Shown here piece after piece: positions 1 through 9,279 of a stretch of 64,000 nt of DNA. The stretch is from Arenibacter sp. F20364 (lineage in GTDB: Bacteria; Bacteroidota; Bacteroidia; Flavobacteriales; Flavobacteriaceae), in contig NZ_JALKBD010000016.1 of assembly GCF_023015905.1 (NCBI RefSeq), positions 62,001-126,000 of the forward strand, written 5' to 3'. The notes beneath the pieces were generated by a model. The model was given only the letters and a program-made list of their open reading frames with translations, did no database searches and was not told the DNA's origin. Both the position numbers and the translations under genes were made by a program. How positions within the stretch are numbered: the first letter of the stretch is position 1; the number at the start of each line of letters is the position of its first letter.

Positions 1-398
1 TTTACGCCCTTACTATCCAAATAATTTTTTACGGTATTGGGATACGAAGTGGCAATCCTTTTACCTTCAAAGTCGTTCACTGAATTGTACTTGACCGATT
101 TTGGAATTGCAAGGGATACTTTGCATTTGGAAAATCCCAATTTTTCCGCAATGGAGATATCCTCACCTTTTTCTATTAGGACGTTTTCGCCAATAATGGC
201 TATATCCACGACCCCATCCCTGAGATATTGGGGGATATCCCCATTTCTCAGATAAAAAACCTCTAACGGAAAATTTCTGGAAGAGGCCTTAAGTTGGTCT
301 TTCCCATTGTCTATGGAAATACCACAGTCCTTTAATATTTGAAGTGAGTCTTCGTTTAAACGGCCACTTTTTTGGATCGCAATTCTAATTTTTTTCAT
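1..398 (-). CDS. hisG: ATP phosphoribosyltransferase, 5' part (cut by window start)
   Basis: Catalyses the first step of histidine synthesis, joining ATP and PRPP. Only the first 132 or so codons lie in the window. The start ATG at 398 opens with MKKIRIAIQKSGRLNEDSL, the typical HisG N-terminus, and continues through a segment reading VDIAIIGENVL that matches the HisG periplasmic-binding-like fold. The rest of the gene and any further his genes lie beyond position 1. The 5' leader (399-562) holds a His-rich leader peptide and a terminator, which supports both the identity and regulation by histidine supply. The sequence alone does not show whether it is the long form with a C-terminal regulatory domain. 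Confidence 0.93.
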   Translation of the reverse strand, partial: MKKIRIAIQKSGRLNEDSLQILKDCGISIDNGKDQLKASSRNFPLEVFYLRNGDIPQYLRDGVVDIAIIGENVLIEKGEDISIAEKLGFSKCKVSLAIPKSVKYNSVNDFEGKRIATSYPNTVKNYLDSKGV

Positions 399-440
399 TA
401 CTGTTTTTTGTTTTTGGCCTGAACAAATCTAACAGGTTGT

Positions 441-475
441 TAAATACAAAACCCGTTTGATTGCTCAAACGGGTT
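441..475 (-). terminator. Attenuator terminator upstream of hisG
   Basis: On the minus strand an 11-bp arm at 465-475 pairs perfectly with 450-460 across a 4-base loop. The transcript then continues with UUUUGUAUUU. This intrinsic terminator sits between the leader peptide stop and hisG. A segment inside the end of the leader peptide (512-518, UCAAGCG in the RNA) can pair with the upstream terminator arm (465-471, CGUUUGA, with one G-U pair). That would form the competing antiterminator. Confidence 0.8.
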
Positions 476-505
476 AGAATATAGTTTAGATACAACAATA
501 CATTC

Positions 506-562
506 CTAGCTCGCTTGACTGCAAGTAAAGAAATGATGATGATGTGTCCTGTTGTTTTTCAT
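506..562 (-). CDS. hisL: Histidine operon leader peptide (18 aa)
   Basis: This short reading frame encodes MKNNRTHHHHFFTCSQAS and ends in TAG at 506-508. It has four consecutive His codons (533-544), lies about 107 bases upstream of hisG on the same strand, and is followed by a hairpin terminator. That is the arrangement of a his attenuator leader peptide: low charged tRNA-His would stall the ribosome on the His run. Recognition rests on the codon run, the position and the terminator, not on similarity to a named family. The peptide itself probably has no function beyond the stalling of translation. Confidence 0.85.
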   Translation of the reverse strand: MKNNRTHHHHFFTCSQAS

Positions 563-7872: not shown

Positions 7873-9279
7873 TTATTTCTTTTTAACTATTTGAGCCATC
7901 ATTTCAGCTTCGCATACCAATTTACTATTGGCATAGGCATAGGCCTGCATATGACATATACCTCTTCTTATCGGCGATATTAAACTGCAGTGGAAAATTA
8001 AAGTGTCTCCAGGAAGTACCTTTTGCTTAAACTTTACATTGTCGATCTTCATGAAAAGGGTAAGGTAATTCTCTGGGTCGGGAACGGTACTTAGTACCAA
8101 TATACCTCCAGTTTGTGCCATTGCTTCAACCTGAAGTACCCCCGGCATAACGGGAGCTCCAGGAAAATGACCTACGAAGAAAGGTTCGTTCATGGTCACA
8201 TTCTTCATTCCTACCACATGTTGATCGGACAGCTCCAATATTCTGTCTATAAGCAGGAAAGGAGGTCTGTGGGGCAACATGTCCATGATTTGATGTATAT
8301 CCATCAAAGGAGGCTTGCTTAAATCATATTGTGGTACATGATTCCTCTTTTCCATTTTAATGATTTTGGACAATTTTTTAGCGAACTGTGTGTTCACAAA
8401 ATGTCCTGGCTTATTGGCAATTACTTTCCCTCTGATTCTAGTTCCTGTCAAGGCCAGATCGCCAATAACATCAAGCAACTTGTGCCTAGCAGCTTCGTTG
8501 GGTTGGTGCAGGGTTAAATTATCCAATATCCCGTTGGGTTTTACCGATAATTTCTTCTTGTTAAAAGCTTTTTCCAGCTTTTTCATTGTTGAATCGGAAA
8601 TTTCTTTGTCTACATAAACAATGGCATTGTTTAAATCGCCACCTTTTATCAAGCCGTTTTCCAGCAGCATTTCCAGTTCATGTAAAAAACTAAAAGTTCT
8701 GGCATCCGCTATTTCCGACTTAAACTCACTTAAATTCTCTAAAGTGGCATTTTGGGTACCAAGCACTTTGGTACCAAAATCTACCATAGTGGTTACCTGA
8801 TAGCTATCCGCAGGGATAATAGTTATTTCACTACCGGTTTCCTCGTCTTTGTACGAAATAACGTCCTTAACTATAAATTCATCCCGCAAGGCATTCTGCT
8901 CAACGATACCCGCCTGTTCCAGGGCTTCAACGAAATATTTGGAAGACCCGTCCATTATTGGAGGTTCCGGGGCATTCAGCTCTATGAGGACATTGTCTAT
9001 TTCCAAACCTACCAAGGCAGCTAGAACATGCTCTGAAGTTTGAATCTTTACCCCGCGTTTTTCCAGATTTGTACCTCTTTGGGTATTTACCACATAATTG
9101 GCGTCGGCCTCTATGATAGGTTCACCTTCCAGATCCACACGTTTAAAAGCATATCCAAAATTTTCAGGGGCAGGAACAAACTTTAATGTTACGTTTTCCC
9201 CTGTGTGCAAACCTACACCCTTAAGTGTAATTTCTTTTGCAATTGTCCGTTGTTTTGTAGTTGTATTACTCACCGTCAA
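7873..9279 (-). CDS. lpxC-fabZ: Bifunctional UDP-3-O-acyl-GlcNAc deacetylase / 3-hydroxyacyl-ACP dehydratase
   Basis: This single 468-residue protein fuses LpxC (about 1-310) with FabZ (about 322-468). The LpxC half keeps the zinc ligands H84 (SEHVLAAL), H266 and D270 (RHKLLDVIGD) and the catalytic His near 293. The FabZ half has H371 in GHFPGAPVMPG and E385 in QVEAMAQTGG. The fusion is known in Bacteroidota and puts the committed lipid A step and a fatty-acid dehydratase, which compete for 3-hydroxyacyl-ACP, in one polypeptide. It overlaps lpxD by 4 bases and leads directly into lpxA. Confidence 0.95.
   Translation of the reverse strand: MTVSNTTTKQRTIAKEITLKGVGLHTGENVTLKFVPAPENFGYAFKRVDLEGEPIIEADANYVVNTQRGTNLEKRGVKIQTSEHVLAALVGLEIDNVLIELNAPEPPIMDGSSKYFVEALEQAGIVEQNALRDEFIVKDVISYKDEETGSEITIIPADSYQVTTMVDFGTKVLGTQNATLENLSEFKSEIADARTFSFLHELEMLLENGLIKGGDLNNAIVYVDKEISDSTMKKLEKAFNKKKLSVKPNGILDNLTLHQPNEAARHKLLDVIGDLALTGTRIRGKVIANKPGHFVNTQFAKKLSKIIKMEKRNHVPQYDLSKPPLMDIHQIMDMLPHRPPFLLIDRILELSDQHVVGMKNVTMNEPFFVGHFPGAPVMPGVLQVEAMAQTGGILVLSTVPDPENYLTLFMKIDNVKFKQKVLPGDTLIFHCSLISPIRRGICHMQAYAYANSKLVCEAEMMAQIVKKK

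Follow-up and report, generated by a model that had tools for sequence, protein, structure and literature searches.

A predicted histidine attenuator upstream of hisG in Arenibacter and other Flavobacteriales, with a post-terminator segment complementary to the terminator arm

Leader and his operon in Arenibacter sp. F20364

The window analysed here is a stretch of 64,000 nucleotides from Arenibacter sp. F20364 (contig NZ_JALKBD010000016.1), and all the features described in it lie on its minus strand. hisG starts at position 398; its 5' part occupies positions 1-398 and the rest lies beyond the window edge. It is the first gene of a hisG-D-C-B-H-A-F-IE series, and since hisD, hisC, hisB, hisH, hisA, hisF and hisIE are found downstream on the same contig and strand, the leader described below precedes a complete pathway. 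The genome contains a single HisG match, and the closest named relatives of this hisG are from Arenibacter (up to 98% over 132 amino acids). Between hisG and hisD, at approximately 8099-8530 of the own-genome stretch L328 (minus strand), there is a frame that, judged by eye, encodes a putative GNAT-type acetyltransferase.

Upstream of hisG, an 18-codon frame (MKNNRTHHHHFFTCSQAS) runs from ATG to TAG at 562-506, with four successive His codons, the regulatory codons of an attenuator, at 533-544. This frame and its His run had been the starting observation of the original prediction, and checking of both sets of coordinates confirmed it. The 151-nt region folds 4.5 standard deviations below its dinucleotide shuffles (z -4.5), with none of 200 shuffles being as good. 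A sequence that matches the Bacteroidota -7 box TAnnTTTG (TAATTTTG, 570-577) ends 7 nt before the leader AUG. In F. psychrophilum this sigma-A box sits at -12 to -5 (PMC9723704), so that its location at 577-570 in the window predicts a 5' UTR of approximately 3 nt. In the trpL attenuator of Sinorhizobium meliloti, too, the leader ORF lies at the transcript's 5' end or adjacent to it; this attenuator differs in that it concerns Trp and in that its transcript starts at the AUG itself, in contrast with the 3-nt 5' UTR predicted here (PMC7298713).

Downstream of the leader lies an intrinsic terminator hairpin (475-450), formed by a 5' arm (region 3, 465-475), a GCAA loop (461-464) and a 3' arm (region 4, 450-460), with 11 bp, a free energy of -15.7 kcal/mol and a U-rich tail from 449. 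The terminator had been correctly anticipated. The proposed antiterminator, i.e.: seven pairs, one of them G-U, between UCAAGCG (512-518) and CGUUUGA (465-471), is also there, but the duplex turned out to be longer. UUGC (521-524) can add pairs to the loop GCAA (461-464) over a two-base bulge, and the resulting UUGC-AG-UCAAGCG (524-512) with CGUUUGA-GCAA (471-461) can reach 11 pairs and -11.0 kcal/mol; three of 100 dinucleotide shuffles of the upstream strand were equally good. We refer to this antiterminator strand as region 2 (512-524). It is contained in codons 13-17 of the leader (Thr-Cys-Ser-Gln-Ala), and its partner, the core of region 3 plus the loop (461-471), is a segment contested by regions 2 and 4 and by a further region 5 that we describe below.

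We folded the RNA left free by the ribosome at different positions, ending it before the 3' arm of the terminator and assuming a ribosome footprint of 15 nt from the first base of the A site. The antiterminator is the best structure in the window when the first His codon occupies the A site, and with the last one there, seven of its pairs persist. When the ribosome is at the stop codon the antiterminator is gone, and the terminator then has -16.2 kcal/mol. Without a ribosome, a protector hairpin (1:2, 501-535) sequesters region 2. Folding thus yields the textbook switch by ribosome position, in which a stall on the His codons frees the antiterminator strand while arrival at the stop covers it and lets the terminator form, as had been predicted. 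Every structural step of classical attenuation is present in these folds of the window, and the attenuator interpretation is supported at the level of such models.

Histidine leaders among relatives

HisG was searched for in overlapping sets of genomes, with matches in 121 of 149 from the family, 251 of 296 from the phylum and 61 of 98 from the order, and 80 named contigs were added. We examined the upstream DNA of 290 loci, which are not all the HisG matches: 140 stretches were picked from the lists, and the 40 from outside the order are mostly better-scoring matches. The window, L001 and L002 are one and the same place, some genomes are present twice because they were reached by two routes, and four named contigs labelled only as Bacteroidia or Bacteroidetes were assigned to Flavobacteriales by HisG similarity. 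A leader was called when an ATG-started short ORF contained at least three His within eight codons. Counting the window, leaders were called in 239 of the 248 Flavobacteriales loci; the figure was 31 of 40 for loci from other orders and classes of the phylum (with some genomes counted twice). Within 300 bp upstream they are present at 267 out of 287 hisG loci, compared with 20 out of 1435 dinucleotide shuffles, and the same criterion gave no leader before any of the 49 other ORFs of at least 150 amino acids in the window. After merging identical leaders, an intrinsic terminator was found in 255 of the 258 distinct ones. A pattern joining the leader with region 2 had matches in 64 of 120 family genomes; by eye, the matches listed are at hisG, except for three (G126, G133 and G021) and those of G513 and G515, two genomes outside the hisG list.

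No leader was called at nine Flavobacteriales loci: judged by eye, three of them have apparent GTG starts, five have only two His codons, and one is cut by the end of the contig. Leader frames with an apparent GTG rather than ATG start were seen in L021, L031 and L137. Leaders with two His codons that retain the terminator were seen upstream of hisG in L011, L106, L165, L233 and L235, of which the last three come from genomes of 1.7-2.2 Mb, where attenuators are perhaps weakened. Outside the order there were also nine uncalled loci, three of which show His-rich frames with an apparent GTG start. In one family of the phylum (f23; L284, L285 and L287), such frames are long and lie upstream of hisG; an inverted repeat GATGTCC...GGACATC is found inside the frames of L284 and L287, with an imperfect copy in L285. 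By eye these three have no intrinsic terminator, and they are possibly another kind of His leader.

A non-redundant set of 166 leaders (143 from Flavobacteriales and 23 from outside the order), less selected than the alignment used below, served for counting. For the ribosome states, at the stage before the 3' arm of the terminator is made, we scored leaders in which region 3 and its loop have at least five expected pairs with RNA anywhere upstream, rather than with region 2 only. Among the 143 Flavobacteriales leaders, 137 had such pairing with the ribosome stalled on the first His codon, 112 on the last, 25 at the stop and 90 without a ribosome, so that by this measure the hiding of region 2 in untranslated leaders is not general. 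The figures for the 23 leaders from outside the order were 20, 20, 1 and 8, respectively. As for the promoter, 55 of the 143 Flavobacteriales leaders have a TAnnTTTG or TAnnTTTA box 5-9 nt upstream of the leader AUG, compared to 1.9% of mononucleotide shuffles; 32 have it in a second cluster 16-20 nt before the AUG, and in 33 there is no such box within 60 nt.

A further helix, P1, between leader codons 4-8 and the stretch after the stop (544-555 with 492-503), was persuasive by eye and weak by count. In the window 17 of 100 shuffles were as good, P1 passed in 55 of 137 Flavobacteriales leaders and in 7 of 23 outside the order, and its covariation is poor. We keep it only as a possibility.

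A segment beyond the terminator

After the terminator, at 417-429, the window bears a segment (GAUUUGUUCAGGC, region 5) that is complementary to the 5' arm and loop of the terminator, with 10 contiguous pairs (three of them G-U) to 461-470. This pairing (3:5) has -10.9 kcal/mol, and two of 100 shuffles were as good. Across relatives, we considered that the 3:5 and 2:3 pairings passed when at most five of 100 shuffles were as good, leaving out 11 of the 166 leaders, which have little post-terminator sequence. 3:5 passed in 68 of 134 Flavobacteriales leaders (approximately 7 expected) and failed in the other 66, as well as in 20 of 21 leaders outside the order; in the same test, 2:3 passed in 111 of 134 and 16 of 21. 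Among the 68 significant leaders, 51 have the 3' edge of 3:5 at a distance of 13-19 nt upstream of the hisG AUG. The 68 leaders have 30 distinct loop sequences, and L241, with a quite different arm, has a matching region 5. The sole case of a Flavobacteriales-like leader with region 5 among the 21 tested from elsewhere in the phylum is L251, whose HisG is 62% identical and whose his region was possibly transferred.

We swapped partners between species to see how specific the complementarity is. Over 127 leaders, the mean for cognate partners was -9.28 versus -7.36 otherwise, and none of 10,000 permutations reached the cognate mean, shuffle and permutation tests being blind to phylogeny. In a pair test we confronted near relatives that differ in their arms or loops, using each one once; this lessens the effect of descent, with some pairs not being close. 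For 3:5, the cognate partner was better in 36 pairs and the swapped one in 10, with 9 ties (p 7.8e-5), and the result held among pairs in which neither member has an AUGAG start (17 to 2, 5 ties; p 3.6e-4). 2:3 gave 24 to 9 with 22 ties (p 0.0068). The two controls of this test were not significant: 26, 18 and 11 for the reversed segment, and 25, 22 and 8 for codons 1-20 of hisG.

Alignment A1 has 58 rows, picked by hand from the 113 leaders that remained after filtering by length, once the shuffle results for region 5 were in, and it is therefore biased towards rows with region 5. Of the His codons, the last three have columns that are invariant or nearly so at most positions, and the first is the one missing from leaders with three. 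Paired cells amount to 99.7% for 3:4, 91.4% for 2:3 and 92.5% for 3:5, while sliding the partners gives 15-55%, 22-49% and 18-52%, respectively. Cells changed on both sides number 13, 19 and 42, where shuffling gives means of 1.2, 9.0 and 10.3, and none of 500 shuffles reaches the observed values. Two measures were weak: 38 of 500 shuffles match the number of 3:5 pairs altered on both sides, and 67 of 500 match the number of pair types in 2:3. Five rows have C in place of U at column 106 of region 3, with matching changes at the opposite positions of regions 2, 4 and 5; in column 104, G changes to A in one row (L155), and regions 2, 4 and 5 are likewise matched. Hence a single base of region 3 covaries with three partners that are unable to pair with it simultaneously. 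RNAalifold returned the terminator alone from A1, since a single consensus cannot display rival structures. The comparison with relatives that had been suggested as a check found the His codons, the antiterminator strand and the terminator to be conserved or covarying in A1, so that the absence of conservation named beforehand as a refutation did not come about.

We also looked at the link between region 5 and the start of hisG. In relatives whose hisG begins with AUGAG, folds that include hisG can pair region 5 with the start codon (e.g. L020 and L026). For the 56 leaders with such starts, the median pairing of the first nine hisG bases is 0.83, compared with 0.505 for shuffles, and 32 of these leaders rank in the top 5%. 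At non-AUGAG starts, the type found in the window, the median is 0.28 versus 0.315, with 5 of 66 in the top 5%, and start covering is not seen; outside the order it is 0.51 versus 0.455, with 1 of 14. In 29 of the 68 leaders with region 5, this segment forms a duplex with the initial 40 nt of hisG that is better than 95% of shuffles, not always at the start codon, and a co-change test between region 5 and the hisG start was not significant (8 to 3, p 0.11). By these comparisons, 3:5 is the more widespread of the two, and start covering is restricted to part of the order. Just before hisG, ACUCAU, which complements AUGAGU exactly, is found after region 5 or overlapping its end in L025, L114, L129, L156 and L168, and with one change in L131. 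This motif is perhaps a second route to covering the hisG start; of these leaders, only L025 passes the 5% start-pairing test.

In folds with 30 nt of hisG included, 3:5 had at least five pairs in 4 of 137 leaders in either ribosome state; without hisG, and with the ribosome at the stop, it did in 30 of 137. The idea that 3:5 is the resting state of the readthrough mRNA fails in most leaders once the hisG sequence is added, and we discarded it.

The leaders of pheA were taken as a second case. From 30 loci (L298-L327), 10 failed the ORF filter and 20 were kept, 18 of which have a leader rich in Phe and Tyr. In 13 of these 18 the terminator ends 6-28 nt before the assumed start of pheA, so that a fifth arm would hardly fit there. 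In the own genome (L311), pheA is preceded by an aromatic leader, MTKQYFWNGFYFYFFFKGGKGLF, and then by a terminator.

Attenuation and the possible role of region 5

We propose that the element acts as a ribosome-mediated transcription attenuator: it would sense charged His-tRNA and set the expression of the his operon, a reading to which we would give a probability of about 0.9. At low levels of charged His-tRNA, the ribosome would stall on HHHH, 2:3 would form before region 4 is made, and RNA polymerase would read through. With ample His-tRNA, the ribosome would get to the stop and cover region 2, and 3:4 would terminate transcription; if the leader were not translated, the 1:2 hairpin would conceal region 2, leading to termination too. 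The known his operon attenuator of gammaproteobacteria (his_leader in Rfam) is alike in its leader peptide with a His run, its antiterminator strand covered at the stop, its terminator before hisG and its protector hairpin when untranslated. The element described here differs in that the antiterminator strand is inside the last sense codons and in that a post-terminator segment contests the same arm.

The 3:5 pairing is well supported by comparison of sequences, while the function of region 5 is something we infer. In Flavobacteriales, region 5, just before hisG, would be a third rival partner for region 3 and the loop. It exists only in RNA past the terminator and therefore cannot decide termination; it would rather tie the state of region 3 to the translation of hisG, and we take it for a likely second gate at that level. 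In our preferred version, region 3 of the antiterminated RNA, not being locked in 3:4, would be taken by region 5, for which the loop, in many leaders private to region 5, would act as a toehold, and a region 5 held in this way would be kept off the hisG start. In a transcript leaking past a formed 3:4, region 5 would be free and, in species with AUGAG, would cover the start of hisG. Because 3:4 is favoured at equilibrium in most leaders, 3:5 is to be expected mainly where 3:4 is absent, i.e.: after antitermination. And because 3:4 is usually the strongest partner, 3:5 would need kinetic help or some other trigger, and the direction of this second gate is a guess. Our proposal of three exclusive partners for region 3, the third of which would relay the history of the transcript so that only antiterminated, and not leaked, RNAs expose the hisG start, is a tentative one, with the odds against it.

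It is conceivable, if slightly harder to believe, that region 5 works with the opposite sign: as histidine returns and the ribosome moves on, region 5 would take region 3 from region 2, and 3:5, adjacent to the ribosome-binding region of hisG, would shut down translation of the existing mRNA. Such a role would suit the distance of 13-19 nt between the 3' edge of 3:5 and the AUG in 51 of 68 leaders, and would also serve leaders without start-codon pairing, such as that of the window. However, the 3:5 helix reaches neither the AUG nor the A-rich stretch that precedes it, 3:4 usually beats 3:5 at equilibrium, and in relatives with AUGAG 3:5 would expose the start rather than conceal it.

We find it improbable that the pairing takes place in trans, with the terminated leader RNA targeting region 5 of the hisG mRNA as rnTrpL does on trpDC in Sinorhizobium. 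Attenuator RNAs acting in trans do have a precedent (PMC7298713), and the terminator loop, which would be exposed in a free leader RNA, shows both complementarity to region 5 and covariation with it. Yet a hairpin of approximately -16 kcal/mol would hold most of region 3, and pairing in cis explains the same data. The exact sequence of region 5 occurs once in the own genome, together with 10 sites with one mismatch, compared to one for a reversed control.

More improbable still is a mere by-product, in which the complementarity stems from base composition or common descent and serves no function. It would account for the 66 of 134 Flavobacteriales leaders where 3:5 goes undetected, and for the moderate result in the window (2 of 100 shuffles), but it sits badly with the 36 to 10 advantage of cognate over swapped partners in disjoint near relatives, with the 30 different loops in 68 significant leaders, and with the divergent arm of L241 and its matching region 5. 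Finally, a T-box or a known metabolite riboswitch with an incidental His-rich ORF can be rejected with near certainty, as no Rfam covariance model (T-box and his_leader included) reaches its gathering score in the window, and the His run and leader frame are conserved.

Attenuators in Bacteroidetes/Chlorobi are reportedly mentioned in the abstract of a 2004 FEMS article by Vitreschak et al. According to a 2010 study that found such a system in bacilli, leader-peptide systems had, to its authors' knowledge, until then been demonstrated in Proteobacteria and Actinobacteria only (PMC2965389), and a paper on Bacteroidota his genes mentions attenuation once in its accessible text, for S. enterica and E. 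coli (PMC8305728). The 2021 transcriptome of F. psychrophilum provides strong indications of attenuation by leader peptides in front of amino-acid operons, and counts hisG and pheA among the structured 5' elements that are shared with other Flavobacteriaceae genera and have no Rfam hits (PMC9723704). Its hisG element is like ours in gene and family, in lacking an Rfam hit and in the proposal of attenuation; the passages of that work on the element come without its sequence, mechanism or any post-terminator pairing, details of which may be in the supplement (PMC9723704). The core of the attenuator is therefore of a known kind in Flavobacteriaceae. The His-leader attenuators of Firmicutes, identified by comparative genomics, are similar in having three to five His codons, a terminator and an antiterminator, and differ in belonging to another phylum and in that the accessible part of their description has no post-terminator segment (PMC9413887). 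The nearest case we found of a stalled-ribosome leader with dual control of transcription and translation is yxjB/tlrB of B. subtilis, where the stalled ribosome controls both termination and the sequestration of a downstream ribosome-binding site; it differs in sensing tylosin instead of an amino acid, and in belonging to a different operon and another phylum (PMC6851288). A post-terminator arm in a His attenuator was not found described in the open-access literature searched. The segment was absent from the original prediction too, as were the longer antiterminator and the published hisG element.

A classical His attenuator thus appears to stand before nearly every Flavobacteriales hisG examined, and before many outside the order, yet it falls below the Rfam threshold in the window. 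Its predicted near-leaderless mRNA would make it a system for studying the coupling of ribosome and polymerase in bacteria that use few Shine-Dalgarno sequences. As a kind, the attenuator is ordinary; the covarying fifth segment is a variant worth testing, and a precise addition to the textbook mechanism: one arm with three covarying partners, one of which is made only after the polymerase has passed the terminator. If region 5 controls translation, the amino-acid attenuator would itself include a check against leaky transcripts. And should our preferred version be true, a leader that senses an amino acid through the ribosome would first gate transcription and then proof-read the outcome at the level of translation.
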